Below are positions 1,111-63,210 of a stretch of 64,000 bases of DNA, piece by piece. Made by a program: the position numbers and the translations under genes. This stretch comes from Magnolia sinica. Its lineage: Eukaryota > Streptophyta > Magnoliopsida > Magnoliales > Magnoliaceae. How positions within the stretch are numbered: position 1 is the first letter of the stretch; each line of letters opens with the position of its first letter. The notes beneath the pieces are model-generated. The model saw only the letters and a list, made by a program, of their open reading frames with translations, ran no database searches and was not told the DNA's origin. Where the stretch lies: positions 57,201,493 to 57,265,492 of the forward strand of contig NC_080575.1 of the NCBI RefSeq assembly GCF_029962835.1, written 5' to 3'.

Positions 1111-1254
1111 GTGAGAATGGGCCTAACGAGGCCTAAGGGAAGGTCACAATGTGAATATTCAACCATCGTTGTCCATCAATATGGACATTCAACCAACATT
1201 ACTCCCAAGGAGTAGCCCACATAGGGCAAACATACAGTAGACCCACGGCCTCAC

Positions 1255-1610: not shown

Positions 1611-1699
1611 AAGGCCCACTATAATGTTATTTTCCATCCAATCTGATCATAAGGTCACGTAGACTTGAATTAAAGGGAAAATAAATTTCATATTGATCC

Positions 1700-2303: not shown

Positions 2304-2347
<44 letters not shown>

Positions 2348-2760: not shown

Positions 2761-3500
2761 AATAGCGGAGGGACCCTGCCACTATGGGCCCCTCTATACA
2801 ATGTATACATCAATGTGGGTCCTACCATATGTGGGCCCTCAAATCATCAAAATCAACAAATAAGATCACCCACCTTTGATCTCCTCTTCCTTCTTCCACC
2901 AATGCGATCTAGAGCTCCAAGGAGATGATTTCAATGGTCGAGATGATCTTTGGATGGTGGAGATAGGAGGTAGGAAGTGGGCCACACAAACTCTATCCAT
3001 GGAGCTTAGATGATTGCTCTCATGTGGTTCCTTGAAAATGAAGAGAGAGAATGAGAGAGAGAGAGAGATGATGGGAGAGAAGTGATGGGAGAGAGGGATG
3101 GTGAGTGATGGATGGGTGTACTTGTGTAAGGGAGAGAGTTGACTTTAAGTAAGGTTGTGTAAGAAAGGGATGGGTTGAGTTGCTTGTACTTGATTGATGG
3201 ATTGATGGGAAGTGTTATAGAGATTCCCTCTGGATTGTAAATATACGACGTTTTTCTTGAACTGAACGCGCGCCCACATCTCTTGGCCCGGGTATCACCT
3301 CGGCGTGCGAGACGCGACATCAGAACTGTGGCAATGGTGCAGTCGCACTGGTACAAGTCTCTGGTCGAACCGAATCTGATATACTGGACACGACTCAGGA
3401 TAACATGTAAACACTGATAATAGATCGCAGGTCACCGGAATTCTACCGGGAGGACCGTGGAAGCCTACGGAACAGTACGGGCTAGGATACAAGTCTTACA

Positions 3501-7744: not shown

Positions 7745-8125
7745 ACAGATAAATACTACACATACAATACACACATCAATGTGGGCCTCACACATCATAA
7801 TTGGGCCTTCCACATACAATGGGCCTCGCATAATCACATTGGGCCTCATACACGGGCCGCATCTACATCACAATGGGCCTCATACACGGGCCGCATATTC
7901 ATCACATTAGGCCTCAAACATGGGCCGCATATTTATCACAATAGGCCGTATCTCATGGGTCTATATACATCACAATGAGCCACAACCAATGGGCCTCAAA
8001 TACATCGCAATGGGTCACAACCCATCGGCCTCATCATAAGGGCCTCAAATACATCACAATGGGCCTCATATATGGGCCATAAATACATCATATTGGGCCT
8101 CATACGTATCAAATTGGGCCTCACA
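7745..8125. repeat. Tandem array of ~30-bp ACATCACAATGGGCC units (copy B)
   Basis: Same unit as in copy A, here repeated about a dozen times with ACACGGGCCGCAT and CATATGGGCC variants. It lies at the matching place in the LTR unit. Confidence 0.8.
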
Positions 8126-9310
8126 TATGGACGGATGGCTCAGATCAAACACGCACACATCATAGTGGCCAGCTGGACATCCAGCCCATGGACAGATGGC
8201 TTGGATAGAATAGATAATCATGTGGGGTCCATGGACGGACGGGATGGATAAAACACATATGTCACAGTGGCTCCACATGCAAATAGATGACATGATATAC
8301 GACACATCATCGAGGTAGGGGTACGCATAGCCCAAAATGGACGGACAACATGGATGTAAGCCACATACATCACGGTCAGCTCCAAACAGCATCGTCCAAA
8401 TGGACGGTGTGAATATAGACACTTACATCTTGGTGCGCCCCACACCACCCATCCAGATGGATGGGTGTGGATATAGAACAGATACATCAAGGTAGGTCCC
8501 ACCTTCCCACACGTGTCACACGTGTGGGGTGGGCCCACACCCCAAATAGATGGACGGTGTGTATATAAACACATACATCATGGTAGTTTCCACTGTCCAG
8601 ACCACTGGACGGTGTGAATAAAATACATAAATCATGTGGGGTTCACCATTCATCAGGAAAGGCCCCACACACACGTGGCAGGTGGGATTCCACCGTCGAG
8701 AGTGTTGGACGGTGTGGATACAACATATACATCATGAGTGGGTCCACGAGCATGGCTCACCAAAGATTTGAATCTGCCACATTTTAGATGGTGTGGATGC
8801 ACCACAAGTGCACAACAAGTGGGGCCCACGATTTGGACAGTGTGGGTCACAACGCTGATGGGTCTCACGTGCAGATGTTTAGACAGCGGTGTGCTCCACC
8901 TGATATTTAAATATGTCTCATTCCCTAGCCCATGGCCAGGAGTTGGGATGGATGGTGTAGATAAATCACATACCTCATGCGTGGGACCCACAGAACTTGC
9001 TGACTTCTATAGCATCTATATGTTTAGTGGGACCCACAGATAGACGGTTTGGATATGAAACATACGTCTGGTGGGTCCCACATGCTGGAAGCAGCACGTC
9101 ACCTAGGTGGGCCTCATGTCCATGCATGGACGGCGCAGATAAAACATCAAGGTGGGTCCACATGTACGTGGCCCACCTAATTGGATCAAGCTGATATTTT
9201 GTGTCTTCCCATCATCCAGGCAGTCTAGCTAAACCGCCGGTCTAGCAAGGTGGACAGCAGGGCTATCCCACCTACTGGATGGTCTGGATCATCCACTTAA
9301 GCACACATCA
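8126..9310. repeat. Degenerate GGACGGTGTGGAT / CACATACATCA array (copy B)
   Basis: Repeated modules containing ATGGACGGTGTGGATA, CACATACATCA and GTGGGTCCCAC, in the same order as in copy A. No gene is seen. Confidence 0.7.
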
Positions 9311-10323
9311 AGGTGGACCACAATCAGAGAAAGGGGAGAGAGAGAGAGAGACGATGTGCGGTGGAGAGGAGCTTCGCCACCATGAGCTCCTCTATATCAT
9401 ACAATGTGTACATCAAATGGGTCCCATTACATGTGGGCCCTTCAATCAAAATCAACGGTGGAGATCCCTTATCCACTAAAATGCAAAGTCTAGATGATCT
9501 TTTCATAATAGAAAAATAAACATCATGATGGGGTCCATGGAGAATGGCCCTATCATGGGATGATCATATGAATCATGGTGGGCCATTGCCACACTTAGGG
9601 TCTAAAGTAAGATCTATACCATCAATCGATAGGCCCGACTTGGACCATCATCAAAACATGAATCTAAGCTTATAAAACACCCATCGATTGCTAATCTTCT
9701 TGGTTCTATGGCTTCCTTAGATCCGTAGCTTCCTCTTTAATGGTGGGAGATGAAGATTGAAGGGTTGGATTAAGAGATATGGGGTAGGGAGTGGGCCACA
9801 CACTTGGCTCTCTCTTGGAAGAGCTTAGATGGTCTCTTCTTTCTTGGGTTTCTTAGAAATTTGGTGGAGAAAATGAGAGAGAGAGGAGATTTAAGGGAGA
9901 GGGATGGATGTGATGGGTGAGTGTTGGGTGTGAATGATGGGTGTACTTGACTTGAGAGAGGTATGGGTTGTGTTAACTTTTGGGTGAGAGAGGGATGGGT
10001 GTTGTACTTGATTTATTGATGGGATTGATTTGAAAGATTGTAGAGATTCTTTTCTTGAAATTTTCTATGTGCAGAATTTTCTCGAAATAAATGCGGGCTA
10101 CAACAACTGGCCTGGGTATTGCATAGGTGTGTAAGATGTGGTGTTGGAACCGCAGCGACGGCATGGTCGCCAGGGTACAAGTTTCGAGTCGAGTTGACTC
10201 TGATCTAAAGGATGTGACTTATATTCATGTGCAAATGTCAATTATAGGTCGCGGGTTGTCGAAATTCGTGGGGAGGATCGAGAAAGTTTAAGGAATGGTA
10301 CGGACTAGGATACGAGCCTTATA

Positions 10324-25469: not shown

Positions 25470-26044
25470 TGTAAGAACTCTATTTAGTGGGCCTTACTGA
25501 TCAACGGTCTAGATTGCCATTCAGTTGGACTGGATGATTGAGTAGACCAGTGGGCCCCACTTCATGTGATTCGCTGTGCAATTTTGATTGTGCAGCAGTG
25601 CGTATTAGGGCTGGAATGCTATGGCTGTTTACGCAGACAACAGTTTGAGTCGAACTAGGACACAACAATGTGGAGCGTGGGAGAGGGAGTTTTGATGAGT
25701 TTCAAACTCCCCCTCCACAGTCTCTATAAAAGAGAGCTGAGTCCCCGATCCTACACCACGACAGAATTCAAGTCCATCTTTTGAGTTGCAGAAAGGGTGT
25801 GAAGGAAAAGAAGATCCTAAGCTCTACAGGTATTCTGGTATTCTTATCCGGCTTGAGTCTCATCTTTTGAGTTGCAGAAAGGGTGTGAAGAAAAGGAAGA
25901 TCCTATGCTTTACAGGTATTCTGGTATTCTTATCCGGCTTCTATGGCGGCATCTCATCTAGGTACGCTATCTAAACCCCTGATCGCCATGTCCCATGCAC
26001 AAACAGATCCGTGGGCCCATTCCACATATAGATTAAGTCCCACA
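25470..26044 (+). repeat. 5' LTR of copia element 1
   Basis: 575 bp, from TGTAAGAACTC to GTCCCACA. It contains CTATAAAAGAG (about 25723) as a TATA-like box. An 86-bp tandem duplication (25775-25860, then from 25861) lies about 50 bp downstream of that box, in the expected transcribed part of the LTR. Confidence 0.95.
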
Positions 26045-28790: not shown

Positions 28791-31700
28791 GGGATACTTG
28801 CTTCTTTCACAAGAAGCCGAGCCATCACAAGAAAGACTGTGTAAAGTATAAGGAATGACTCATAAAGAAGGGTAATGATTCTGTTCTAGTTTGTTTTAAA
28901 TCTAATCTAACTGATGTGTCTGTGGATTCTTGGTGGATAGATTCGGAAACCACTATTCACATATATGCTTTTATACAGGTCTTACTACAGACCAGGCCAC
29001 CAACTGATGCAGAAAACTCAGTATACGTAGGCAATGGTGTCAAAGTCAACGTAGAAGCAATTAGAGTCTATAAACTTAGGTTAGAGTCTGTTTGTTTATT
29101 GGATTTGGTAGATACATTTTGTGTGCCTTTTATAAAGCGCAATCTAGTCTCTATTTCTCGTTTGGATAAATTGGGATATTCATTCCAATTTGAGAATAAA
29201 AGATTTAGTATTTACCTTAATTCGATTAAAGTTAACACAGACTCTATGGTAAACAACCTATGCCAACAAGACTTGATTGCCTCACACATCTATAATGTTA
29301 ATGACTTGTACGGAAATAAAGTAGGATCCAAGCGAAGGTTAGACTATGAGAATTCTTCCATGTTGTGGCACAGGCGACTATGTCATATATCTCGTGAGAG
29401 ATTAGACAAGCTTGTGCGAGAAGGAATTTTGCATTCTCTAGACTTTTCTGACTATAAATGTGCATTGATTGCATAAAAGGAAACAGACTAGAACTAGAAA
29501 GAAAGGTGCAACCAGAAGTGTAGATCTAATAGAGGTGATACATACAGACATTGTGGACCATTCCCTACAGCATCATGGAGTGGACACAACTATTTTATTA
29601 CCTTTATAGATGACTACTCTCGCTTCGGGTACCTATACCTTATTAATGAGAAATCAAATGCCCTGGATGCTTTTAAAATCTATAAGGTCGAGATTGAAAA
29701 TCAACTCGATAAGAGAATTAAAGTTGTCAGATCTGATCGTGGTGGTAAATACTATGGCAGATATGACGAATCAGGACGCAATCCAAGGCCATTCACTAGA
29801 TACCTGCAGGATTGTGGCATTGTCGCTCAATACACTATGCCTGGTACCCCAGAGCAGAATGGAGTGGCTGAGAGATGCAATTGTACCCTTATAGATATGG
29901 TGCGAAGCTTGGTCAGCAATTTGACATTGCCAGAATCTTTGTGGGGTGATGCGATCAAAACCACAGTCCATATACTAAATAGGGTTCCCAGCAAAGCAGT
30001 AAGTAAAACTCCTTTTGAGTTGTGGAATGGAAGAAAACCAAGTCTCCGATATCTACATGTTTAGGGTTGTCCTACTGAGGCCAAAGTTTATAACCCGCAT
30101 GAAAAGAAGCTTGATCTTAGAACCGTAGGTTGTTTCTTCATTGGATACCCAGAAAGATTAAAAGGCTATCGATTCTACTGACTTTTTCACTCCATCAGGA
30201 TTGTTGAGACTGGGAATGCCAGATTCATTGAGGACACTGAAAACAGTGGGAGCACGAACATAAGAAATTTTGTATTTAAGAAACAAAGGACTGTGAGTCT
30301 AGTCATGGTCAATCCAGATCACATGGATATTACTGATGCAGTCGATTCTGCAATCACTGCAGAACATCACGTAGAACCTCATATACAAACCACTGATGAG
30401 AAAAATCAAGATTAGACCTAACAAGCTGAACCATTGAGAAGATTTGAAAGAGAGAAAAGGCCTGTAAATCGAGACGATTATATCGTATACTTACAGAAGC
30501 ACGACTTTGACATAAGGCTGGAAAAAGATCTTGAATCCTTTGCACAAGTCAAATAAAGGGCTGATCCTTTTCGTTGGTTTGATGCCATGAAAGATGAGTT
30601 GAAATCCATGCGGGACAATAAAGTATGGGATCTTGTAAAGTTACCCACTGGAATAAGGCCGGTTGGTTCTAAATGGATATTTAAAACCAAAAGGGACTCC
30701 AAGGGTAATGTCGAAAGGTATAAACCCCGACTTGTTGCCAAGGATTTTAACCAACGTAAGGGCATTGACTTTAAAGAGACTTTCTCACCAGTATCCAAGA
30801 AAGACTCATTCAGGATCATAATAGCTCTTATAGCTCATATGGATTTAGAGTTACATAAGATGGATGTAAAGACTGCATTTTTCAATTGGGATCTGAATGA
30901 GAATGTATACATGTTGCAGCCTAAAGGTTTTGTAGCTATTGGCTCAGAACATTTGGTTTGCAAACTTAAGAAGTCCATCTATGGGTTGAAACAGGCATCA
31001 CAATAGTAGTATCTTAAGTTTCATGAAGTAATTTCCTCATATGGTTTGTAGAAAACACTGTAGATGAATGCATCTACATTAAAACCAGTGGGAGTAAGTT
31101 CATTATGATGATTTTGTATGTTGATGACATTCTGTTGGCAGCAGTGAAACCAGGATGTTGAGCGACACCAAGAAATTCTTATCTCAAAGGTTTGAAATGA
31201 AAGACCTTGGTGAAGCTTCTTACGTCATCGGCATTAAGATTCACCGTGACAGAACACTTGGATTGCTCAGTCTGTCACAGAGGGCCTATATTACTAGGGT
31301 ACTGGAAAGGTATGACATGCAAAATTGTGCTTCAGGAAAGTTGCCCATCGTGAAGGGTTACAAATTTGGTCTATTTTAATGTTAAAAGAATGATTTAGAA
31401 AAGAATCGAATGAAAGAATTTCCGTACGCATCAGTAGTAGGGAGCATCACGTATGATCAAGTCTGTACGCGATTGGACATTGCCTTTGTCACTAGAATGT
31501 TAGGAAGATATCTATATAATCCATGAATGCAACATTGGATAGCTGCGAAGAAAGCATTATGGTATCTTCAGAGAATGAAAGACTTCGGACTCACATACAG
31601 AAGGTCTGATCATTTGGAATTGATCGGATATTCAGACGCAGACTTCATAGGCTACATTGACACTAAGAAGTCTACTTCAGGATACATCTTCATGATGGTG

Positions 31701-32599: not shown

Positions 32600-33175
32600 T
32601 GTAAGAACTCTATTTAGTGGGCCTTACTGATCAACGGTCTGGATTGTCATTCAGTTAGACAGGATGATTGAGTAGACCAGTGGGCCCCACTTCATGTGAT
32701 TCGCTACGCAATTTTGATTGTGCAGCAGTGCGTATTAGGGCTGGAATGCTATGGCTGTTTACGCAGACAACAGTTTGAGTCGAACTAGGACACAACAATG
32801 TGGAGCGTGGGAGAGGAAGTTTTGATGGGTTTCAAACTCCCCCTCCATAGTCTCTATAAAAGAGAGCTGGGTCCCCGATCCTACACCATGGCAGAATTCG
32901 AGTCTCATCTTTTGAGTTGCAGAAAAGGTGTGAAGGAAAGGAAGATCCTAAGCTCTACAGGTATTCTGGTATTCTTATCCGGCTTGAGTCCCATCTTTTG
33001 AGTTGCAGAAAGGGTGTGAAGGAAAGGAAGATCCTATGCTCTACAGGTATTCTGGTATTCTTATCCGGCTTCTATGGCGGCGTCTCATCTAAGTACGCTA
33101 TCTAAACCCCTGATCGCCATGTCCCATGCACAAACAAATCCGTGGGCCTATTCCGCATATAGATTAAGTCCCATA
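32600..33175 (+). repeat. 3' LTR of copia element 1
   Basis: 576 bp, from TGTAAGAACTC to GTCCCATA (terminal CA mutated to TA). It has the same 86-bp internal tandem duplication as the 5' LTR, so the duplication predates this insertion. Confidence 0.95.
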
Positions 33176-43117: not shown

Positions 43118-43122
43118 TTCGG

Positions 43123-43748
43123 TGTTGGAATGTATAAAAAGAGTGGCTCATTTATGACCACAACCCTTGTATTAAAAAATAATAACTTCTCATATTCCAC
43201 ACCTTTTCATATTTTGAAAGGTGTCTCTCCACATTCCAAGAATATCTTTTCACATTCGAAGGAGTGATTTTTCCAATTCCTTCAAATTCATTCCTTTGGT
43301 TTTAAAAACTCTTAAAATTCTGTAATGACATTGAATATTCTGATTGATTAATTAGATAAGATAAAGAGTCATGTAATTACTTGGTTCCTTTGATGGATTG
43401 GAACCAAATCATCTATAAATTCCAAGCTCCTGCTCCTTCTCTTCAACTCAACATTTTGCAGTTGATCTCTCACCCCATTCACGCATCTAAAAGAGTTGAG
43501 GAGAGAGAAGGTCAGAGCTAGTTAATCTCAGTGGTTGTGCCAAGTAGAGAAGACGTAAACCGTTGAAAGTAATAGCTCATCAACATCAAGTTTCTTCATC
43601 GTCTAATTCAATGGTGCAAGGTATACTCTTTAATTAGTGCAACTCTTTGGTTTTCATTTTGTCGAATGCATCAAGTCAAGATTTTATGGATTTTATATTA
43701 TTATAAAACCATATGTAAATGTTAACATGTATTGGTTCAATGTTAACA
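43123..43748 (+). repeat. 5' LTR of copia element 2
   Basis: 626 bp, TGTTGGAATG to GTTAACA. Relative to the 3' LTR it has an extra ~22 bp near 43240 (a partial repeat of TTCACATTC-type sequence). The following TGTGGTAATG is a poor match to a primer-binding site. Confidence 0.93.
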
Positions 43749-45641: not shown

Positions 45642-47641
45642 CCTTTAAATAGTTGGTGGATTGACTTCGGTGCATCTATCCATGTTTCAAATTCAATGCA
45701 GAGATTTCTTTAAAGCCGGAATCCAAGTGATGGAGAGAAGAATGTTTATATAAGAAACCGATTGGAGTTTGAAGTATGAGCAATCAGCACCTACAGACTC
45801 ATTTTGAAAACCAGCTTTCAATTAGACCTAAAAAATATTTTATTCATATCATCTATATCAAGAAATCTTATCTCTTTATCTAGATTGGACAAAGAAGGCT
45901 TTAGCTATCATTTTGCAAACAATTATCTCAGTTTATGTATAGATAATATTTTAGTTGGTACTAGATTTTTGAATGGTGGTATTTATCAATTAAACTTAGA
46001 TTCCATATTTGAGCAATCTCTCCTTACTCTGCATGTGAATATTGGATTGAAACGTGGCCCGCTTAATAATACTTCTTCATTGTTGTGGCACCAACGTTTA
46101 TGTCACATATCTAAAGACAAAATTATGACGTTAGTGAGGTTAGGGGTGCTGGCGACTCTTGACTTCACGGACTTCAACATATGTATAGATTGTATAAAAG
46201 GAAAGTAACCTAAAATTAACAAAAAAGGTGCCACATGCAGTAAAGAACTCCTTGAATTGATACATACTGATATTTGTGGACAATTTCCGCCTTCTATTAT
46301 TGGAGAAAATTATTTTATCACCTTTATCGATGACTATTCACAATACAATTATGTTTATTTACTAAAAGAAAAGACAGAGGCCATAAATGCTTTCACAAAT
46401 TTCTAGGTCGAAGTGACATATCAATTAGACAGAAACATTAAAGTTGTGAGGTCAGATAGAGGTGGTGATTTTTATGGCAGACATACTGACTTAGGTCAAA
46501 GTGAAGGCCCATTTGTCAGTTTCCTCAAATCAAAAGGAATAGTTCCTCAATATACGACACCGAGTACGCCTCAATAAAATGGTATTGCTGAGAGGCATAA
46601 TCAGACACTTATGGATATGGTACGTAGTATGATTAGTAATTCCTCATTACCTGAATCCATGTGGAGTGAAGCTCTGAAAACATCAGTGTATATCTTAAAT
46701 GGGGTTCCTAGCAAGGTTGTCCCTAAGACTCCTTTCGAGTTATGGACAGGAAAGAAACCTAGTTTGAGACACTTACACATTTGGGGTTGTCCTGCAGAGG
46801 CTAAATTGTACAATCCATAAGAAAAGAAACTTGATCTCAAAACTGTGAGTTGTTTTTTTAGCGGATATTGTGAGATATGAAAGGGCTATAGGTTTTACTT
46901 CCTAACCATAGCACCAGGATCGTTGAGACTCGATCTGCTAGATTCTTGGAAGATGGTGATGATAGTGGGAGTGATGAACCACACAATGTGGTATTATAAG
47001 AAAAACTAGTATCAATTTCATTACCCGTACCTTATCACAATATTATTATTCCGTAGGACATTATTCATAACAATGAGAAACAACAGCTCAAGAATGAACC
47101 ACTCCATGAAGAAAATGTCATAGAACCGGTAAATGAAATGTCCTAACCGGAAGTACAAATAAGATCCACCAACATTTTCACAAGCCAGGGTGATACATAG
47201 CTATTGTTTACCTCTAAGAATTTGAATTTGATATAGGAGTCACAAATGATCCACCAACATTTTCACAAGCCACGAATGATAAGGATTCTGATAAGTGGCT
47301 TGATGCAATGAAAGATGAGTTGAAATCCATAAATGACAACAAAATTTGGGATCTCGTTCAATTACCCACAGGTTTTAAGGCAATTAGTTGTAAATGGATA
47401 TATAAAACTAAGCACGACTCAAAGGGTAAAGTTGAACGATATAAAGCCAGATTAGTTACCAAGGGACTCACTCAAAGATAAGGTATCGATTATCATGAAA
47501 CCTTCTCTCCAGTATCTAAAAAAGATTCACTTAGAATCATTTTGGCACTAGTGGCTCATTATGATCTCGAGTTATATCAGATAGATGTGAAAACGGCATT
47601 TTTAAATGGGAACGTAGTTGAGGAAGTCTACATGAATCAAC
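45642..47641 (+). pseudogene. Copia element 2 pol, 5' part: protease, integrase, start of reverse transcriptase
   Basis: Protease remnant SWWIDFGASIHVSNS (family DSG reads DFG), pre-integrase LLWHQRLCHISKDK, and integrase with [12 protein letters not shown], then a stop just before [10 protein letters not shown], then [15 protein letters not shown] and [16 protein letters not shown]. The reverse transcriptase starts at AMKDELKSINDNKIWDL and runs to DVKTAFLNGNVVEEVYMNQ, where the CACTA insertion begins. Stops at about 46406, 46575, 46819 and 47480 make it inactive. In the pre-integrase, integrase and reverse transcriptase blocks it closely resembles copia element 1. Confidence 0.93.
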
Positions 47642-47683
47642 CACTACCAAAAAGAGGTAAAGGATTCAGACCACGTTACTTTT

Positions 47684-47745
47684 TTGCTACGGATATAAAC
47701 CTTAGCTATAGTTGCTACGGTTTTAATCCGTAGCTAAAAAGTTGA
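47684..47745. repeat. CACTA subterminal repeats, left
   Basis: TTGCTACGGATATAAACC, TAGCTATAGTTGCTACGG and TTTTAATCCGTAGCTAAA are direct and inverted copies of a GCTACGGATT word. In CACTA elements such words are the binding sites of the transposase-associated DNA-binding protein. Confidence 0.8.
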
Positions 47746-48105
47746 CAACCATTAATAATTAATAGTGTTGTAAGGGGCTCCATGAGGCCTAAAAAAAACT
47801 ATATGTTATATCTAAGCTGTCTTTATATTTGTAAATATTACTTTAGAGGATGAAAAAAAAAAGCAGCTAGATCGAACGCTCAAGTGGACCACACGGTAGG
47901 AAACATTGATATTAAATTACAGTTGCTTCTTATGGTGTGGTCCACTTGGGCCTTAAATATACCTTAAATTTGGTATCATAAGTTATAATAATTTATTAAA
48001 ATTATGCATCGAAATGGATAAACCAAATACATCATGGTGGGCCCCACGGAGCCCCTATCCAGACCGTCTTCGTTCGTCCATGAGAAGACGCCCAAAGATG
48101 GGTAT

Positions 48106-48159
<54 letters not shown>

Positions 48160-48287
48160 TCCCTAATCAGAGCATTCCCAAAGCTCCTTTCCCTAATCCT
48201 CTCTCCCTCCCGATCTCTGCTCCATCTCTCTCATTCTCCTCCCTCTCTCTCCAATGCATCAGTCATGAAGCACACAGGCCGTGGACG

Positions 48288-48331
<44 letters not shown>

Positions 48332-48349
48332 ACAGCAGCCATGAATCTC

Positions 48350-48740
48350 CTACCTGAAGAAACACACGCCGTGAAGCTCCTCTCCATAGGTTTGATATCT
48401 TCTTCTATTTGTATCTCTTTTCCTGTCTTTCAGATATGATATATGCTAACTGTTTGAAGAAATGGCATGCTATCTATTTATTGAAATGGCTGGATGAGAT
48501 TTTTTTTTTAATTTTCTGTAATTTTAGATACATGCTAACGACCTGTTCACGAATAGCTTCTCTTCAAAGAGGCATGGAAACTCATGCTCGGTTGATCCGC
48601 ATTGGGTCCTATCTTGATGTGTTTGTCATGAATGCTTTGACTAACATGTATGCGAAATGTGGATGCTTGAACCTCTGTTTTTTTATCCTAACCCTTGGAC
48701 ATTTGCCCCTTTTTCTGGTAGTGATTGTTTAAAATCTTCA
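48350..48740 (+). pseudogene. Captured pentatricopeptide repeat (PPR) gene fragment inside CACTA
   Basis: From about 48528 the plus strand reads LTTCSRIASLQRGMETHARL, then IRIGSYLDVFVMNALTNMYA, then KCG. This is a typical consecutive repeat of PLS-class PPR proteins, which bind RNA in organelles. It follows an acceptor-like TTCTGTAATTTTAG, and coding similarity ends after KCGCL, so only about one and a half repeats are present. Upstream, after two CT tracts, ATGAATCTCCTACCTGAAGA runs to a donor-like CCATAG|GTTTGA. That looks like a leader exon from the same or another gene. A full PPR protein has many such repeats; this is a fragment. Confidence 0.75.
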
Positions 48741-51220
48741 GGATCTGTTCCTGTTTCTCTACTTTCTAGTTGTAGCAAAAAACAATTGGAAAAGGTTCAT
48801 TTCCTCTCTCCATGTGCATGTTGCCTCTCTTCTTCGACATATGGTTAGATCAATTGGTACGTTCAAAAATTTAAATGTATTGGAATTTTTTTTTTCCTTA
48901 TATGCACCTATTTAATACTTGTCTTTTTTGTAGATTTTAATTGCATTCATGTTGTTTTAAGAGTAGTGTTTCTCGTTTACAGATTTTACATTCCCACTTG
49001 TAGTTGTGCAAGGACAAACATTATATTCCACAATGGGACCCATGGTTCTGTAATCCAGACCATTGGCCTATTGCATCGAACTGCAGATTGATGAAGGCCT
49101 GAAAATGGGAATGATGGGAAATTCACAGGCACCAATCTTTGGATCAATTTCATTGGGATGGAGACCGACACTCTAATTTTCAACCAAAATGTACTTTTTT
49201 TTGCCACAATCAAAAGGCTAGAATTGTCCCAGCTAAAAGAATTTAATACTCTACACAAGGAAGAATGTAATAGACCAATGGTCAGGACTGCCTATCTGGC
49301 TTCGTTAAAATAGAAATGAAGTAAATAATGTTTCTTAAAATGCCATTTATAAATGTTGCAAAAGGTAAAATAGTTTGTCTTAAGGCTAGTTTGAATAAAT
49401 TGCAGATTGGAGAATGCAACTAGTTTGCATCAACAAGGAATTTATACTTATTTGGGAAGTAATTGCATTTGCTGGCTGTATTCTCATTCCTTTTATGTAG
49501 AGAAGGATTGTTGGTCTTCATCAGAATACATCAGTTGGATCAACTGACATAATTGAATGTTTTCCTTTAAAAAAAAAAAAAAATCTTTTTTCTTTACCTT
49601 GAGCTTGGAGGAAGATTATACTGTGGTTTTGACCAAATCTATATGCCTATTTTCATATCCAAATACAAAATTCAAGGGTGTTTGATGAATCTGAGTTGAA
49701 TGGATCACTTTGGGAATTGGGAAAAACATGCAAGACAGATAAATAATCATTTTTTGTTTTTTAGGTTTCTTCTTTTGCTTTGTATTTTCAATGTAATGGG
49801 CCCCAATTAACCTAATCATATTTGATGCGTGTTCTATTAGGGCCCATTTGGATGATTTTCCTGTTATTCGTGTTTTAACCCCTTTTTTCCACTGATTTTT
49901 TAATCAATTTTTTTCTTATCTTTTTTTAAAATTTTTTTATTGTAAATGATACATGATTAGGTTGCTTGTGCTCATGCTTGAACGAGTAAGGAAAGAAAAG
50001 TTAATTCGGGCATCTTTGGACATTTTTGGGCATTTAGTGCCTTTTTTTTTTTAATTTTTTATTGTGGTTTACTCTTTATCCTGATTAGGTTGCTTGTGCT
50101 CATGCTTGAAATTATTATAAACATGTTTTTTTATGACAACATGTATGTAACTTGTTTATATATAAGCATGTATTTATTGTCTTTTTTAAAATTTGCTGTT
50201 TTTTTTTTTTTTTTCATTTTTTTCTTTTATTTTTGCTGTTAAGGTCAGGCAGTTCAGGCTAACAGAAAACATTTATGCCCCATCAAATGTATGCCACAAA
50301 ATATGAATGATACACATGCTTTCCTTTTTTACTACATATAAATGTGCGTGTCTTTTTACCATAGAAACCATCAGAAATAGCTATTTACTACATATAAATG
50401 GGATTGAATGCCTACCATTGACAATCGCTTGGGGAAAGCAATTGGTAGCTTATTGTAGGTCTAGTGCAATGTGTTTTAAGGTGTAGCAGGGGAAGTTGCT
50501 TTGACTTCAGGTGGTGGATTGAAGAAGCTATCTTTATTAACTGATAACTATGAAGAGATTGCAATGGTAAATCATTTATACCAACTCTCTTACCTGATAT
50601 TCTCCCAATTTCCATTTTCTTTTATGCTCATTTCTTACCACATTAGTGCCAATTTTTTACTCAAACTCTCTAAGTGCATCATAAGAATACAATTCCACGA
50701 ATGTAAAGTGGGTCAAGCACAGGCTAAGGTTTGACCCATTTTCTATTTGGGGCAGAGTGGAAAACATAACCTGCCTTTATGTAGGCTGTCATTTCCCACT
50801 TTTGATGCTACAAATCACAACTGAGGTAAGAACAAGAAGGTCCTATTCTTATCTCACTTGTGAGTTGGACATAGCCACCTGTCATGAGATATTTATGGGT
50901 TAATTGACATTGGTGTAATTATTCCAATGCAATTAGTAGCAGTCCTTGTGTTTTGCATGAGTTGGACACAACACACCTATATATATATTGATTTTTATTT
51001 TTGTTTTATTTTATTTCTGGCTTTCTTTTTTAAGAAAAATCTTGATTTGAAATTTCTTTTTCTTTAGAATAAAATTCTAAGTTTGTAGTAAATTTCAGAA
51101 GCAGAACTGATGCATGCCCAAAATCAGGTATGTAGTAAAATTTAGTTAGTTGTTCAAGGTTTGTGTAAGAGTAATAAAATTCATGTCATTGTATATGTAT
51201 CTTGTCATGTATCAGCTAGG

Positions 51221-51322
51221 GTGGTAACTGACCGAACATCAGGATATTTGAAGGGCTTTAGGTTTGTCACATGCCCTATCATTGAAGAGATGGAGCAAGG
51301 CATAAAGGGAATGGATGGTCAG
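51221..51322 (+). pseudogene. Captured RNA-recognition-motif exon inside CACTA
   Basis: Thirty-four codons read VVTDRTSGYLKGFRFVTCPI, then IEEMEQGIKGMDGQ, and stop exactly at a splice donor (GGTCAG|GTAATT). This is the second half of an RRM domain, with a degenerate RNP1 motif (KGFRFVTC against the usual RGFGFVTF), as in glycine-rich RNA-binding proteins. An acceptor-like TATCAGCTAG lies just upstream. The retained exon-intron border points to capture of genomic DNA rather than of an mRNA copy. Other RRM exons are not seen nearby. Confidence 0.7.
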
Positions 51323-53483
51323 GTAATTGCTCATTGCCTAGGGCTTGCAATGTTCGTCATTACTTTCAGATGTGTTGCACTGGTTTGTACCAATCAACAC
51401 TCAATGTCTTTAAACGTGCTTTGGTTGTTGCAACTACCTCACTGATAGAGCTGGCAACCCCCTTCTATTTTGGTATTTATCAATGGTAAGACATTGTTTT
51501 CTCGTTGTAACCCATATATATGATGAATAAATGGGATGATTTTTACACTAGGTGATCCTCATAGTGGGCCAACTTATTGAAAGTTTTGGATGTTACATTC
51601 ACTTAATAGGTTGGAAGTTATATGTTAGATGTTACATTTATGAGATAAGGGTTCCCGGAATGCAACAGAGAAGAAGAAAGGAAAACAAGGTATTGAAGAT
51701 AGCATTCGATCTTTCTTCAACATCTTTGATGTAGGTCTTTGGGTTCATCAAGTCAGCGAGCTGACTCAGTTGACTTGATGAGATTTTGAGCTGAGTCATC
51801 AGGTTCAGGAATGCAAGCCTCAGTTTGGTGTAGGTTTTATGCTACCCTGTTTTCAGATATTGAGTCATCAGATTTTTTTTTTCTGGTAGTGAGTGTATTT
51901 CATTTTAGACTTGTTAACTGTCATGTAGACCATACATTTTTTGTTAAATAAAATAAAATTGCTGAAATTGCTGATTTTATAAATGTGCTGCAGGTAAAGA
52001 AGGGCCTACATAAGCCCATGCGTAGATATTGTTTCTTTCCTTTATATTATGATTTAGATGTGTATAGATATTCTATGAGTTTTTGCAATCCACGCATTTG
52101 AATCATCATATATGCTTATGATTTTAATGCACCAAAAACCACCCATGCAATCTCAGCCCTGCAAATGCGTCAGCATATCAAGCTCATGGACTTGACATGG
52201 ATATGTTTGATGTCGCCTAGGTGCGGAACTAGTTGTCCATTCCAATGTTACCAAGATCACTAACCCACCTCATTCTTTTGACAAAAAAGAAAATGAAAAA
52301 TAAAAAAAGGTGGCACTTCTAGCAGTCATAGATATTATTGTCCTCAGCCCCTAGAGTCTGCATTTGGATGTTCTGATTTCTTTGTGCATGCAGTTTTTTT
52401 CCATTGAATTCAATATCAATGAGTTTCTCAAATGTAGGATGTTCTGCTGGTAGTGATTTCTTTGTTCTAATTCCTTTTACTTTATACCAATGTTTTTATT
52501 CTCAAAGTTTAATTTATCTATTTCATTATGGCGTTTTCTCATAGGATGCAAGCTCTGGTTGAGGACTACATTTTCAGTAGAGGCATTTTTTCTATGTCGG
52601 TATTTCAGTATACTAATGAGGAAAAAAGCTCTCAAGGTTAGTTCGTTTCCGCTTAAAACATCGAATAACTAGATAAATCAGTTGGTATGTACATTGATCA
52701 GTTGATAGTTTTTTTGGCTTTATCTCGTTTTTCTTCAATGGAGCCTGAATTCATAGATAAATCAGTTGGTATGTACATTGCTCATTTGTGTGATACTACC
52801 CAAACTGCACTTCTATTTTGCTGTTGATTTATAGGTTTGATTTGGAACTACAGATATTTCCATGGGATATGTCTCGCATTTGAGCATCAACATAGGCAAA
52901 AGCAATCCCAAAAAAACAAGATTGATCCAATTCCATCTTTAATAGACAACAAGGTCATGGATCCTACATAGTTGGCCTTGGGTGCTTGGCCTGAGTTCTT
53001 TTCTTTTGTTTTGTTTGGTTTTTGTTGCTGATTTTGATTCATGGTGAATGGACTTGTAAACTAGATAAACATGGATAAGTATATTCTGGTAGACTGGTTG
53101 TGAGTTGTAAAAAATAGGTTTGCAGAGGTGAACTTTTCATCCCAGATATTGATAAAGTAATTAGTATTACCAATTTGGAGCAATCAAATTTTGAAGTACT
53201 CTCTCTCAGAAGAGCACTTTGTTTGGATGATCAAGATTCACATTAGATTGGATGCAGATAGAAATTATGTGAATACTTGGTTGTGCATGTACAACTATTC
53301 CAACACAAGTATACGACGTCCTCTTGTTCATTAATGAGGTTCATGTGCAGAGGTACTCTCTCTCAGAAGAGAACTTTGTTTTTTCAGTAGCAGTTTCAAT
53401 GAGAAAATTGTAGCAGGGGAATTATACAGTGTTCTCTGAGTTTTTACTTTCTACCTTTCTATATCTATGGTCTGAAGATGGAG

Positions 53484-54008
53484 ACTTTTGCAGGTTTTTG
53501 GTTTTTTAGGTGATGAAAATCATGTAGAAACCTGGATGTATAGCATGAAGCATTGGGTCCCATCTAAAGAACTCCAAATTGCAAAGGTCTTGAATGGACT
53601 AGTATCAGGGTGGACAGTAGGGGTGGATCAATAGTGGTAGTGATGGAAATGGTGGAGGATTTGAACCATCAGATGTTTGGGATTGTTTATAGTCGCAAGA
53701 GCCGGAGGTCAGCAGCTGGAATTGCTGGGGCAAATGCTGCTTCTACGGGCTTGAAAGATCAGATGTATGGAATTCCATTCATTCTGAAACAGAGGAGGAA
53801 AACTGTGAAAACAACATGGGAAAATTCAAAAATTTTACAAGAATGTAGAGTTGTGGAGAATATCGATGCTTCTCTACCTCCGAAGGGGATGGTCATTGTT
53901 GTTATCAGACCCGATGGCTGGAGCTTTCACTCAGTGTGGCATCCATTTCTGTTCTGTACACAACATGAGTTCAAAAAATGTGAGTTTTTTTTAGTTTTTT
54001 CTTTCTAA
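53484..54008 (+). pseudogene. Unassigned captured exon(s) inside CACTA
   Basis: 53610-54008 is an open frame of 132 codons, the longest in the CACTA element. It contains two similar segments, MFGIVYSRKSRR (about 53670) and MYGIPFILKQRRK (about 53764), which look like an internal repeat of a basic motif, then GMVIVVIRPDGWSFHSVWHP. Just before it, 53484-53580 reads DENHVETWMYSMKHWVPSKE after an acceptor-like TTTTGCAG. I do not recognise the family. The reading frame does not start at a convincing initiation context, and it may be a fragment only. Confidence 0.4.
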
Positions 54009-54974
54009 AACTGCTGTCGTTGAGTTGTTGCATGATGCTTGGTTTGACTGGCAATTTCACCAGTGTGGCCTTCCTTTCACTGGCATGTGTTGTTAACCTT
54101 TGATGGGCTCCATCATAAATGGCCTCTGGCGCTGAAAATCTCTTCCATTGGACAAGTCTACTGTCCGATTGCCAGTCATTATAGAACCAGTCATTGTTCT
54201 ATAATCCATTCACAATTTTAGGCCCACCTAATGGATAGCTCAGATGTTCATGTGCAGGTTGGGTGACAGTTGAAGGGAAATGCTTTGAGGTTTTTATTGC
54301 CCTTATTAAGAAGGGAATTTAGAAAAAACTCTAGCTTTCTTTTCATTTATGATCTTTGATGCACTACTACCGAAATCGTAGAGTTTGGTCAAACAGCAAA
54401 TGCCATATCTTGGTGCATGTCTTCATCATTTATATGTCAATTAGTTTTGATTTTATGTTATTCTTGCTCTCTCCCCTGGATCATTGGAATTATCTTGTAT
54501 CTTGTTATCCTTATACATGGTATCTTTGAAGTTGTAAGAATTTTTTTATGCTCCTGTAATAGGTTGAAACGATATACTTAGAAAATGCATGTCCTAGTAA
54601 TAGGTTGAAACTATATTTCTTCACTTACCCTAGATGCCCACTTCAAATTCCTTGGAGATGGGTGCACATAGTCCAAGTTAAACACATCATTTTCAAATGC
54701 TTGTCTATCACTCCATTTCTTCTGTTTTGAGCTGCATTTTTAAAAAAATAAATTAAGTGCATCTGGTGCTGAAAAGTTCGATAATACATTTTCTGGTAGT
54801 GGATGCATTGTATGATTTTATTGCTATTTGTAATAAATGCATCATTTTTTTTCCTGATTGCATTTTATGTACTATTCCTATCAACATTAAGCTTAGATGA
54901 GTTATCAATCATAGCAGGTTCTTGCAATGGAAATAGGTACCATTATTATAATATATATTTTTTATTTTTTTTTA

Positions 54975-55440
54975 AAAATAGCTATGGATTTTATCTGTAG
55001 CTCTTGTTCTGAAAACCGTAGCTATTACTAACTTTAGCATATTGCTACGGATTTCATTCCACTTTTAGCTACTGATATTATCTGTAGTAGTAGGTACATT
55101 TCGTTACAGAAATTACACCTACTGCTTTTTTCCGTAGCTAGTGATATCAACCACTACGGATCTAATCTGTAGCCGTAGGTATATTTCGCTACAGAAAGTA
55201 TAGCTATGGCCTTTATACGTAACTACTAATATCTATTACTATGGATCTAATCTGTAGGTGTAGCTACATTTCACTACAGAAAATATAGTTATGGCCTTTG
55301 TTTGTGGCTACGATATCTATTGCTACAGATATAATCCTTAGCAATAGGCTTTTTAACCTATAGCTACCCCACCAATAGCGACGGACTAGATCCGTAGCAA
55401 AAGGTCTTTAGCTATGGTTTTTTGCCGTAGCCTTTGCCCG
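54975..55440. repeat. CACTA subterminal repeats, right
   Basis: About fifteen variants of GCTACGGAT and ATCTGTAGC in both orientations over 460 bp, for example ATTGCTACGGATTTCATTCC and ACTACGGATCTAATCTGTAG. This region is much longer than the left subterminal region. Confidence 0.88.
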
Positions 55441-55454
55441 TTTTTCTTATAGTG

Positions 55455-56629
55455 AACCAAAGGGCTTTATTAAACAAGGTAATAACCAACTAGTATGCAA
55501 ATTAAAGAAATCCATATATGGACTTAAACAAGCTTCTAAACAGTGGTATCTCAAGTTTAACCACATAATAGTTGCCTTCAGTTTTCAAGAAAATACTGCA
55601 GATCGGTGCATATATCTGAAGGTCAGTGGGAGTAAGTTTATCTTTCTGGTCCTATATGTGGATGATATTTTGCTTGCTAGTAATGATCTAAGCATGTTGT
55701 ATGAAACTACGAATTTTCTCTCTGATAATTTCAAAATAAAAGATATGGACGCAGATACTTTCGTAATCGGCATTGAGATATATCGAGATCGATCACGTCG
55801 ACTACTTTGACTATCTCAGAGAACCTACATTGATAGGATTCTCGAAAGATACAGTATAAAGAACTGTAAAGCTGGTGATGCACTTATTGTTAAAGGAGAT
55901 AAATTTAGTTAGGACCAATACCCAAAGAACGATGTAGAGCGAGCACAGATGAAAGATATACCCTATGCTTCTGCAATAGGGAGCCTTACGTATGCACAAA
56001 CATGAACTTGGCCTGATATCAACTTTACTGTTGGAATGTTAGGAAAATATCAAAGTGACCCTGGAATGGATCACTGGAAAGTTGCAAAGAAAGTCATGTG
56101 CTACTTACGGGGAACCAAGGATTATATGTTCACATATAAAGGACCCGATTAGTTAGAAGTGATTGGATATTTTGACTCTGATTATGTCGGATGCATTGAT
56201 AGTAGAAAATTGACATCTGGTTGTCTTTCTGCTTGCTAACGGGGCCATTTCGTGGAAAAGTGTTAAGCAAACTTGTGTCTCTACTTCTATGATGGAAGAG
56301 GAGTTTGTGGTTGCTTTGAGGCCACTACCTAGGCAATTTAGTTGTGGAAATTCATCTTAGGGCTTCGGATTGTCGACATCATTTCGAAGCCACTGAGAAT
56401 TTATTACGATAATACTGCAGCAGTATGTTACTCCAAAAATGACAAGTATTCTAGTCAAGCAAAGTATATTGGAGTTAAATATAATTTTGTCAAAGAAAAT
56501 GTTAAAAATCATTTAGTGTTTATTAAACATATAAGGACAAACCAGATGATTGCAGATCCAATGATCAAAGGATTACCGCCAAATACCTATAAGGGTCATG
56601 TAGCTGAAATGGGCCTAGTTAAGATATGA
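55455..56629 (+). pseudogene. Copia element 2 pol, 3' part: reverse transcriptase and RNase H
   Basis: Resumes at KGF right after the CACTA insertion. It contains LVCKLKKSIYGLKQASKQWY, the intact catalytic YVDD (VLYVDDILLASND, about 55650), IPYASAIGSLTYAQT, and an RNase H part ending MIADPMIKGLP and TYKGHVAEMGLVKI before TGA at 56627-56629. Stops at about 55809, 55909, 56003 and 56150, and a frame break near 56230-56340, make it inactive. Confidence 0.93.
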
Positions 56630-57071: not shown

Positions 57072-57674
57072 TGTTGGAATGTATAAAAAGAGTGGCCCAT
57101 TTATGACCACAACATTTGTATTAAAAAAATAATAACTTCTCATATTCCACACCTTCTCATATTTTGAGGGGTGTCTCTTCACATTCTAAGGAGTGATTTT
57201 TCCCATTCTGTCAGATTCATTCCTTTGGTTTAAAAAACTCTTAGAATTTTGTAATGGCATTGAATATTCTAATTAATTGGAGGAAATAAAGAGTCATGTA
57301 ATTACTTGGTTCCTTTGATGGGTTGGAACCAAATCATCTATAAATTCCAGGCTCTTGGTCCCTCTCTCCAACTCAACATGTTGCAGTTGATCTCCCATCC
57401 CCATTCACGCATCAAAGAGAGTTGAGGAGAGAGAAGGTAAGAGCTAGTTGATCTCAGTCTTTGTGCTAAGTAGAGAAGACCTAAACCATTGAAAGCAATG
57501 GCTCATCAACATCAAGTTTCTTCATCGTCTAATTCAATGGTGCAAGGTACACTCTCTAATTAGTGCAACTCTTTGGTTTTCATTTTGTCGAATGCATCAA
57601 GTCAAGATCCTATGGATTTCATGTTATTGTAAAACCGTATGTAGATGTTAACATGTATTGGTTCAATGTTAACA
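57072..57674 (+). repeat. 3' LTR of copia element 2
   Basis: 603 bp, TGTTGGAATG to GTTAACA, followed by the target duplication TTCGG (57675-57679). It is clearly the same LTR as 43123-43748, with scattered substitutions and a ~22-bp length difference. Confidence 0.93.
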
Positions 57675-57679
57675 TTCGG

Positions 57680-58962: not shown

Positions 58963-59322
58963 TGTAAGGCCTGTATCCTAGTCTGTACCGTTCTGTAGAC
59001 TCTCGCGATCCTCCCCGTCGAATTTCGGTAACCTGTGACCGATGATCAACGTTTGTGCTTGACCTTAAGTCATATCCGGTATATCAGAGTTGGCTTGACT
59101 CAAAACTTGTATCTTTGTGACCGCACCATCACCATGGTTCCAACGCCACGTCTTACATACTGATCCGATACCCTGGCAGGGAGATGTGGACCTGCATTCA
59201 GTTCGAGGAAACGTCGCGCGTTTGCAATCCCAAGAGTATCTCTACGATATGTCAAATCAATCCAATCAATCACCTCACATGTCAAGTACATGACCCATCC
59301 CCAAAAGCAACCCTAAAGTCAA

Positions 59323-59364
<42 letters not shown>

Positions 59365-59991
59365 CACCCATACATGTCAAGTAATGCCCATCACCCCATC
59401 ACTCACTTCCCATCACTCCATCACTCTATCACACATCACCTCTCTTACAACCACCCTCTCCCTCTCTTTCTCTTCACACTTTCTAAGCCACAAAGAAGTG
59501 TGGATGTCTAAGCACTTCCAAAGGGAGAGAAAAGTGAGTGTTGTGTGTGGCACACTTCCTATCTCTAGATCTATCATCCTAGCCCTTCATCTCTCATCAC
59601 CTTCCATCAAAGAAGAACACAAGGAGGTCGGCGTTCCATCGGACTAAGGATATCAAACGGTGGGTGCTTTATAGGCTAGATTTTCATGTTTCGATGATGG
59701 GCCAAGTGAGGCCTACCGATTGATGGTATGGATCTCACTTTGGACCCTAGATGTAGCCGATGGCCCATCTTAATTCTCATGATCATTCCATGATGGGGCC
59801 ATTCTCCATGGACCCCATCATGACGTTTATTTTTCATGCATGGATAGGGTCATCTAGACCTTGCATTTCGGTGGAGAAAGGATCTCCACCATTGGTTTTG
59901 ATTGGTGGGCCCATATGTAATGGGACCCACTTGGTGTATGTTGTAAATCATGGAAGGGAGGGCCTATAGTGCCGGGGTCCCTCCATCACTC

Positions 59992-60053
<62 letters not shown>

Positions 60054-63000
60054 CTTGATTGTTGGCCCCATGATGTATGCATTTTATCCAAGTTGTCCAC
60101 CTTTGTGGACCCACTTAATGGACATGTAGGATTTGAACCATCCAAGCCATGTGGGCCCTACCTTGGGGTAATGAGAAGACACAAATATCAGTTTGATCAA
60201 AATCAAGTGGGCCACGTCTATGTGTTACCCACCTTGATATTTATTCACGTCGCCTGTCCAGCGTCCCTGGACGCTGGACATAATTTTTTTAGTGTGAGCA
60301 ACAGTGGGATGTACTAATAAAAAAGGGCCGCTCGTACAGGCCCCAACTTGATGTATGGATTTAATCCACGCCGTCCATCCTGTTTCCCAGATCATTTTAG
60401 GTGTTGAGCCGAAAAATGAAGCCAATCCGACTCTTTGGTGGGCCATAGCATAGAAAATAGTGTTGTCTACCATTGAAATGTACTCTGATGTTTTTGTACC
60501 TCAAAATATGTCGAATATTGGTCTCAATGGGTTTGTCTTGGGCCATAAAAACCAATGGCTGGGTCGGATTCCCCGGATGCGGGCTCTACCTAGGCAAAAC
60601 CGCAGAAAAACTCAATTTCATTAAAAAAAAAACAGAGGCAGCAAGTGCTGCTGCTGGCGCCAGAGGACATTGCGCAGCGTCCTGCTGCGCTCCTGCGGTG
60701 GGCATGAATGGCTAGGGATGTGGGTCCCAGCCATGGGCCCCACCGTGATGGGTGTGGAACATCAACACCTTGCATTTGGTGGGCCCCCTTAGGGCAGCGG
60801 GCCACCCCAAAAATTGGCCGTATACATAGCTCAGGTGGCCCACGTCATATAGGAAACAATGGGATTGAACGACTACCATTAAAACCCCTTTTAATTGTCA
60901 CAAGAGTTTTGGATCATTATGAAATTTGTTTTTCCTCTTTATTCAGGTCCCTGTGACCTTATTAACAGTTTGGATGATAGATAAATGTTATGATGGGCCC
61001 CACATGGGACCCATTGATGTATACATTGTATTCCACACGTGTGGACCCCACCATGCAGTATGTGTTTTATCTATGCCTGCCCCTGCGCTGTGCTGCGCCG
61101 GTCAGGCCCCACCGTGATGTATGAGCTGGTCCACACCATCCATATGGCTGGACGGTGGGCCACTTCATGAGGTATGTCTTATATACTAACCACCCATCCA
61201 CTGGATGTGGCCCCCACCATCAATGTGGACAATGACATCCACCGTTCAAACTTCTAGGGCCATTGTAGTTTTTCAACTAAGCTAATATTTATCTTCACTT
61301 CACTATGTTAACCTATGAATAGTTTGGATCTCAAAATACATCAGGTGGGCCACGCCATCCAGCCGTTGATCAGGTGGACCACATTACAGGAAATAGTGGG
61401 TTTGAATGTCCACCATTAAAACCCTTGGGCTACAGGATTTGGACCTATATGATATTTGTCTTCCCCTCTTAATCCAGGTCTTTATGACCTTATGATTAGA
61501 TTGGTTGGAAAATAAACTTTATAGTGGGCCTTGTGATTTATTTAACCAGGAAAATTATTATCTCTATTGCTATTTTTAGTATGATCCAAATGATCCTCCA
61601 ATATGATTTTGGGGATGTATGAGGCCCATCTTGATTTATTTGTGGCCGTCCATTGAGGCCCACCTTGGTATATATATGAGGCCCATATGATTAGGCTCAT
61701 CTTGATGTAATTATGGCCCATCCGTTGAGACCACCTTGATATATATGAGACCCATGTTATTAAGTCATTGTGATGTATTAGGGCCCGTGGGTTGAGGCCC
61801 ATTGTGATGTATTTCTGACCCATTTGGCAAGGCCCATTATGATGTATTCAAGGCCCATGGTTGAGGCCCAGTGTGATGTATGTATGACCCGTTAAGTTGT
61901 ATATGAATCCCTTGTATGGGCCACTACTTGGGAATAATGTTGGTTAAATGACCACATTGTTGGGCAATGATGGTTTAATGTCCACATTGTGACCTTCCCT
62001 TAGGCCTTGTTCAGCCGATTCCGATTGTTGGGGCCGATTGTCATGCCGTTCATCAATACCGATTATGATTATGAGTATGTGACAACATAGCATCATGATA
62101 CCAACACCTTGGAGCCACCTTGTGTATATATTGGGCTCATAGGAAAGTCCAGTTTATTGCGCGATAGAGAGGGTAAGGAAGCCACTTATTGAACTTAAAC
62201 TCAAATCTGCCCTCGGTGGGAGATATTGTGACGCTCCATCACTATGATCACATGTGGGCGGAGCCTGAGGAGCCTGGGCGAGCTACCAGTGATTGGCAGG
62301 CTACTGTGCTGGCAGGTTACTGTGCACACTGTGAAGGCAAAACTTTATCCTACATTAGTTGCATCGTCCGATGTTGTGGTGACTATAAGTTGGATTCTTT
62401 CCTTAACTATTATGACACGTTTTAAATTAGTGAGCTTATCTTGATATTTAGACTAAATCTGCTGTCCTTCTGTGGACCCCCATCATTCGTATGCATGTTA
62501 TGATGAATGATTGATTAAAGCAGATGCCATTGGGTTGAGATGATTATGGGACTCCTTGTGAGACGGAGTTATCCCCACATGATCGCGCGATACGCGCAGG
62601 TTTGATGTACGACCTAGATGAGGTTGATGGTATTCATGGCTCTTCAGGATTTGCATATTGCATTTGCATCATCGGCATCTGATATTTAGTTCTCTACGAT
62701 TTCACATTTGTATAGCCAATTCGCATTGCATATTCTGATATTATATGACTCATGGACTTACTACATATTTTTGCTTACTCTGATTACTCTGATATTGTAT
62801 ACTTGACACTTACCTTATGCACACACTTACACCACCCTCTAAGCTTTCTATAAGCTTATGCACGATAGATGCATGCAGGTGGCGTTAGGTTGCAGCAAAT
62901 TGAGCTTGGAGCGTGCAACGATCTTCTGGAGCTTTGATTTTTGATTTATGTATTTTCCTTCCAGTATTGTACTCAAATGATTATATTAGTGGATATGTGA

Positions 63001-63210
63001 TGATGATGTTGCCTTTATGTTTTGGGTATACTTGTGGTTATGCTTCTTATGAGACCAATGTACGTTGGAAAATCCTCCTTGTAGAATCCCAGGATCAGAA
63101 CCTGGCGTATGAACGCTGGGAGCCGAGAATGGGGTACTACGGAGGCTATCGACACTGGGTTCGGCGATCGGGATTCCTGTGAATCCGATTTCAAGGTTTG
63201 GGGCGTGATA
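58963..63210 (-). mobile_element. Large LTR-like unit, copy C (4248 bp, inverted, probable solo LTR)
   Basis: Inverted relative to copies A and B. On the plus strand it runs from TGTAAGGCCTGTATCC to TTTGGGGCGTGATA (the TG of the canonical start is mutated to TA here). It is flanked by AAGAA (58958-58962) and GAGAA (63211-63215), a 5-bp duplication with one mismatch. The inner order is the mirror image of copy B, including the ~270-bp GC-rich end (58963-59240), CT tracts (59323-59360, 59994-60051), the GGACGGTGTGGAT-type array, the ACATCACAATGGGCC array (about 61640-61900) and the unique-looking part to 63210. No coding sequence was recognised. Confidence 0.82.

Follow-up and report, generated by a model that had tools for sequence, protein, structure and literature searches.

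How do pieces of unrelated host genes come to lie together between the ends of a single transposon? This question is raised by a 7,813-bp element at 47642-55454 (+ strand) of a 64,000-nucleotide stretch of the Magnolia sinica genome, hereafter the window (assembly GCF_029962835.1, contig NC_080575.1, positions 57,201,493 to 57,265,492). A preliminary description of the window had read this element as a gene-capturing CACTA transposon (Pack-CACTA) nested in a copia reverse transcriptase and carrying fragments of a PPR gene, an RRM gene and one unassigned exon. We conclude with high confidence that it is a non-autonomous, gene-capturing CACTA element of the En/Spm superfamily that was assembled stepwise. 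Its ends and target-site duplications (TSDs), its family, the parent or candidate parent loci of its cargo, the sense orientation of the pieces, a hybrid junction and, for two of the three pieces, exon-intron boundaries are all observed directly in the DNA.

Ends and internal structure of the element

The left boundary of the element reads ATGAATCAAC|CACTACCAAAAAGAGG and the right boundary TTTTTCTTATAGTG|AACCAAAGGG. The trinucleotide AAC stands on either side (47639-47641 and 55455-55457, + strand), a TSD of the 3-bp length characteristic of the CACTA (En/Spm) superfamily. Terminal inverted repeats (TIRs) of the CACTA...TAGTG type, also characteristic of the superfamily, are present as an imperfect pair, CACTACCAAAAAGAGGTAAAGG versus CACTATAAGAAAAACGGGCAAAGG. 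Short subterminal repeats in both orientations, a further superfamily trait, lie near both ends: the word GCTACGGAT, allowing up to one mismatch, is found 22 times in the window where 5.5 are expected, a count reached in 0 of 100 shuffles, and 14 of the 22 words fall inside the element between 47686 and 55398. An 85-bp array occupies 55069-55299 in its 3′ part.

A Pfam scan of all six frames of the element found no transposase domain at E ≤ 1 and returned only DUF3915, at 0.61; a Pack-CACTA element is likewise without transposase. Single frames gave weak rows below the cut-off (MucB_RseB_C 0.04, DUF4257 0.13). Rfam returned zero matches in the window, and ARAGORN none. The 7.8-kb non-autonomous element that had been described from its CACTA ends, AAC duplication and subterminal words is thereby confirmed at 47642-55454.

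A family with conserved terminal modules

We searched the 1.84-Gb genome (127 contigs) with the first 959 bases of the element and scored 40 of 2,628 candidates. Among these, 21 places besides the window match from base 1-8 to at least base 844, at 78-87% identity. Twenty of the 21 were read over 9.96 kb each, and L045 and L046 were added later, bringing the number of copies read to 22. Twenty copies have a common 5′ module followed by differing interiors, with breaks mostly at element positions 844-871, 897-899 or 1033-1076, and L045 and L046 share just the first 628 bases (element positions 1-628) of this module.

The 5′ module occupies 47642-48500 (+ strand) in the window and comprises the TIR, subterminal words, an insert resembling a miniature inverted-repeat transposable element (MITE), a CT-rich, leader-like stretch and a conserved GT. 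The MITE-like repeat (47769-48055) is palindromic, an inverted pair at 70%, and related sequence is found outside the family in both orientations (seen in L052 and L053). The CT tracts of the preliminary description are present at 48110-48156 and 48290-48327; in the aligned copies they belong to the family's 5′ module, and not to a captured gene. Downstream lies a putative splice donor, CCATAG|GTTTGATATC (48384-48399, + strand). All 21 aligned copies (the window and L009-L028) have its GT; the site is not shown in L045 and L046.

The 3′ module (54801-55454, + strand; element positions 7160-7813) contains subterminal words at 54981-55398 and the 3′ TIR. It is present in sense over at least 570 bp in seven of the 22 copies: L013, L016, L022, L023, L025, L027 and L046. 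Clean 3-bp TSDs flank L013 (GAT), L016 (AAT) and L046 (AAA); none was clean for L022, and for L023, L025 and L027 the terminal bases at the 3′ side could not be located. Partial Transposase_21 matches occur in L010 and L017, both of which have the same 5′ module, placing a tnp2-type transposase among the relatives of the element. In L017 the match lies downstream of a PPR piece. Across the genome as a whole, Transposase_21 matches are common.

Two copies have unusual structures. L012 holds a related CACTA element nested in reverse at approximately 3460-7780 in element orientation (5′ module 7780-7106, 3′ module 4018-3459), and such nested insertions therefore occur. In L025 the beginning of the 3′ module appears twice in succession, at 6670-6837 and 7758-8326, as expected if neighbouring elements fused.

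Captured pieces and their parent loci

The first captured piece (48523-48674, + strand) is a fragment of a PLS-type PPR gene. Its reading matches PDB chains in phmmer at E 1.3e-6 to 1.4e-5, and a Pfam scan of the window copy reported no PPR family at these positions. We searched the genome with 47 residues and scored 150 of 1,230 candidates; nine other places match at 61-89%, and one of the nine has stops in the PPR reading. One of the nine, at C15 (15.285 Mb), is an open frame of 855 amino acids with 78% amino acid identity to the piece, against 50% for the next gene in the same scored set. The DNA of the piece is 88.8% identical to this parent gene over 152 bp. An overlapping but longer piece of the same C15 gene is carried by L017 (198 bp, 92.4%).

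The second piece (51156-51375, + strand) holds an RRM exon, 51216-51322, with its AG and GT kept, together with flanking intron. The RRM is weak in the window copy (PDB E 0.011; Pfam E 0.16, under its cut-off), and stronger in the sister copy L046, whose reading scores E 5.9e-6 against RRM chains. All 65 of 65 candidates were scored in the genome. Twenty-one places match at 85% or more, window and query included; a locus at C4 (~105.776 Mb) comes next with 78%, and below it are four further places, three at 62-66% and the last at 51%. Stops interrupt the reading in five of the 21 places; in the other 16 it stays open through 41 codons. The alignment of the element to the C4 locus is confined to 220 bp surrounding the second exon of that locus, at 85.5% (87-88% for L045 and L046), and a preceding RRM half lies upstream in C4, as judged by eye. 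We regard C4 as the candidate parent.

The third piece (53612-54180, + strand) consists of the 3′ part of an exon, to 53979, a donor GTGAGT at 53980 and intron sequence. Its 110-amino-acid reading has matches at eight places that have further cargo in common with the element, the window being one of them, and at a locus on C19 (~30.538 Mb) with a 311-amino-acid open frame. The C19 DNA is 88.7% identical to 53612-53903 (292 bp) and 89.5% identical to 53896-54180 (285 bp), and the match continues past the donor into intron sequence; 105-113 bp internal to the parent are absent from the element. For the exon left unassigned in the preliminary description, C19 is the parent locus. Each of the five other full-length matches in transposon-type places has one to three stops, and the window copy has none over 146 amino acids. 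A place at C12:77.36 Mb (L047) was also considered as parent; it matches at 83-91%, but it is without window 52447-53454 and reads in two frames, and was set aside as another derivative.

Orientation of the cargo

All three pieces lie in sense, as the preliminary description had it. The RRM and third pieces include intron sequence, indicating that they were captured as genomic DNA. The element thus holds host coding DNA with parent loci in the same genome, as Pack-CACTA elements do, the RRM parent being a candidate. Cargo is shared with L012 and L046. Two outcomes named beforehand as fatal to a capture reading, fragments without parents and ends without other copies, were not seen: a parent or candidate parent was found for three of three fragments, and 21 other places share at least 844 bases of the 5′ end. 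We make no claim that the cargo is maintained as protein, because the pieces are short and young.

Sense frames were scanned in 13 members: the window, L009, L010, L011, L013, L014, L015, L017, L020, L022, L023, L025 and L027. L025 carries GH16 (2.1e-7) and GH1 (4.7e-4, below the Pfam cut-off), and L027 carries FemAB_like (1.6e-9) and PCNA_C (0.0097, below the Pfam cut-off), the PCNA exon being flanked by AG and GT. In the three members that have both modules and located host fragments (the window with three, L025 and L027), 7 of 7 fragments lie in sense, a two-sided probability of 0.016 under no bias if the fragments are independent, which those of the same element may not be. This count leaves out rows that are transposon-borne, weak or not located, namely the transposase-related rows, PMD (not located), Atrophin-1 and the rows of L013 and L022. 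The weak rows are TPR_MLP1_2 at 0.037 alone in L013 and AIM24 at 0.21 alone in L022; L023 has none.

Antisense frames were scanned in the window, in the group L010, L013, L015, L027 and L023, and in the group L025, L017, L009, L011 and L014. The best E in those of the window, L025 and L027 was 0.046, L027 being scanned within its group of five members. In L011 a PRP38 exon (2.9e-5) lies antisense at 9592-9681, some 9.6 kb behind the 5′ module. It was not counted as antisense cargo: no 3′ module lies within 17 kb, and the exon may lie outside any element.

The window copy as a hybrid of two subfamilies

Judged from its sequence, the window copy is a hybrid to which two subfamilies contributed. 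Copies of the PPR type (L009 and L013) match element positions 1-1076 and then differ, L013 matching again only in the 3′ module. L046 (8,893 bp, with AAA duplications) matches positions 1-628 and 1083-7813 and has other sequence where the PPR piece sits. Both subfamily parts are joined at 48710-48724 (+ strand) in the window copy and in L012. The junction from the PPR-type 5′ part to the L046-type interior reads TTTTTCTGGTAGTG|ATTG in the window, where L046-type sequence has AAGGC|ATTG, and TTTTTCTGGTAGTG resembles a CACTA 3′ terminus. We infer that the joint is what an inner CACTA 3′ end beside an ATT target would leave. Such a joint would fit the growth of Pack-CACTA elements by neighbouring insertions and re-mobilisation, as modelled in the available parts of two reports (PMC8903248, PMC13317346). 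The joint in L012 (TTTCTAGTGGTG) is less tidy and does not form a proper CACTA terminus, and for this reason we keep the proposed origin of the joint conditional.

Beyond the joint, an interior block at 48724-52955 (+ strand) matches five other places end to end at 92-93% (40 of 2,606 candidates scored). Its copies continue differently from the window on either side.

A 9-mer, CTGGTAGTG, occurs four times in the window, at 48715, 51883, 52447 and 54793, always inside the element and on the plus strand. The first occurrence is at the hybrid joint, and the other three stand at points where other copies diverge from the window. L012 and L046 each have the word once; at the other three sites they are different, or the site is missing or unread. 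The four words might be scars of old CACTA ends.

Assembly of the element and alternative explanations

We propose that a high-copy family with a conserved 5′ module of ~0.85 kb and a 3′ module of ~0.65 kb gained pieces of host genes, as genomic DNA, between its ends. Host DNA may have entered through repair or through joint mobilisation of closely spaced insertions, and hybrids would arise between subfamilies. In the window copy, a 5′ part from a subfamily with the PPR piece would then have been fused with the interior and 3′ end of another subfamily, whose cargo would already have included the RRM exon together with the border of an exon from a further host gene. The most likely mover of the element into the copia element would be a CACTA transposase that relatives provided in trans and that acted on the shared ends, the insertion leaving the AAC duplication. 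The captured pieces could yield a chimeric transcript or, as the preliminary description also suggested, small RNAs against the parent genes.

Several observations weigh against this reading. The TIR pair is imperfect, the L012 joint is untidy, and none of the 13 members scanned in sense frames is a complete transposase-bearing element with both modules. Neither an excision nor a transposition event was seen. The C4 RRM locus is a candidate that may not be a complete functional gene, and C12 and C19 hold related places as well. The C19 parent gene is presumably Enhancer-of-polycomb-like, to judge by its downstream reading, although a PDB search for this gene did not bear the name out. A separate PDB search, with the 146-amino-acid frame of the window at 53568, gave no match either.

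Might the element instead be a degenerate autonomous CACTA, its gene fragments no more than chance similarity in transposase or intron sequence? Transposase-bearing relatives do have the same 5′ module, the RRM and PCNA scores are weak alone, and Pfam reports no PPR in the window copy. However, DNA identity to the parent and candidate loci is 85-89%, the alignments end sharply and two of them span exon-intron boundaries, and the six frames of the window copy are without a transposase domain. For the PPR and third fragments, the alignments with their parents already rule out chance similarity, and we consider this explanation extremely unlikely. It is also improbable, if slightly less so, that the interior at 48724-52955 is a mobile element in its own right, inserted into the CACTA, and that a non-CACTA agent captured the RRM piece. 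Several copies do break from the window exactly at 48724 and 52955, but sequence beyond both breakpoints is also common to those copies (eight left and eight right flanks read), and the block is thus part of a longer interior rather than a bounded element. Moreover, it sits between CACTA ends of the same family in L046 and behind the same 5′ end in L045, and 0 of 16 flanks show a TSD of its own in unrelated sequence. We rejected the block as an independent mobile unit on the basis of these shared flanks.

Within the preferred reading of a stepwise gene-capturing CACTA, the 5′ module might act as a portable exon trap, a CT-rich leader with a conserved donor-like GT behind which captured exons lie in sense. 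The interiors diverge ~100-150 bp after the donor-like GT. Against this, in the RRM-carrying copies L045 and L046 the match to the module stops at base 628, short of the donor-like site, and the seven sense pieces are few and not all independent. We hold the idea doubtful. If it were true, new leader-exon fusions would be expressed and tried out systematically across the family, and either selection or the route of capture would preserve the sense orientation.

Comparison with known gene-capturing CACTA elements

The architecture of the element equals that of Tpn1, Tgm-Express1 and Pack-CACTA elements. The element itself is real and well supported; the behaviour is known for plant transposons, and the example is new. 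In the available part of its description, the Tpn1 family of Ipomoea nil averages 7,081 bp, has 3-bp TSDs with one exception reported and includes few transposase-bearing members (PMC5105172). Tpn1 and the Magnolia family are alike in being En/Spm-type, in conserving their terminal regions and in having captured host sequence in place of the interior; they differ in species and cargo, and chimeric transcripts and activity are reported for Tpn1, whereas the present family is described here from its DNA (PMC5105172, same part). Tgm-Express1 of soybean, as far as the accessible text of its report goes, is a 5.7-kb CACTA with pieces of five unrelated host genes (PMC1947982). Unrelated host genes with exon-intron structure kept are common to both elements. 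Tgm-Express1 lies in an intron of an expressed gene, and its spliced chimeric RNAs were sequenced, whereas the window element, seen as DNA, lies in a retrotransposon.

Pack-CACTA elements of Arabidopsis, rice and maize are likewise non-autonomous, with CACTA ends and host coding DNA, often from several loci per element, according to the available sections of two reports (PMC8903248, PMC13317346). There Pack-TYPE CACTA elements are mostly low copy, whereas a first look with the 5′ end of the window family yielded 2,628 candidates (40 scored). Jozin CACTA elements of Chenopodium, in the accessible part of their description, have captured pieces in the 5′ region upstream of a transposase-associated domain (PMC8978399), an arrangement that recurs in L017, where Transposase_21 follows the PPR piece; the window copy differs in being without transposase. 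Among the matches listed for CACTA in Liriodendron or Magnolia, no paper concerned the family of the window element. With the present case, the known gene-shuffling CACTA families gain a numerous one from a large plant genome, in which parent loci, sister copies and a hybrid junction record the assembly of cargo. The leader-like 5′ module and the so far one-sided orientation of captured exons make a concrete test of cargo expression possible.

The copia-like host and the surrounding window

The CACTA element splits a host reading frame, which ends on the left with TAFLNGNVVEEVYMNQP (...EVYMNQP) and continues on the right with KGFIKQG...KKSIYGLKQA. We take the interrupted frame to be a copia reverse transcriptase, from its motifs and from the surrounding long terminal repeats (LTRs). 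The 5′ LTR (43123-43748, + strand, 626 bp) and the 3′ LTR (57072-57674, + strand, 603 bp) are bounded at their outer ends by the 5-bp TSD TTCGG (43118-43122 and 57675-57679). Nesting in a copia-like LTR element, as originally described, is borne out by this pair and by the frame that resumes across the insertion. For the order of ages, Kimura two-parameter (K2P) distances are 0.05-0.07 for the sister copies versus 0.087 for the host LTRs (601 sites).

Other repeats lie elsewhere in the window. A second LTR-like pair, 25470-26042 and 32600-33173, is 95.8% identical, and 30575-30891 is 74.7% like the reverse-transcriptase region at 47296-47611; by these similarities, the pair probably belongs to another, younger copia-like element. 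Window 1-1110 is a long degenerate tandem array with units like AATCGGCCTCGAC, and several blocks of 5239-10321 repeat inverted in 58965-63150 at 72-82% identity.

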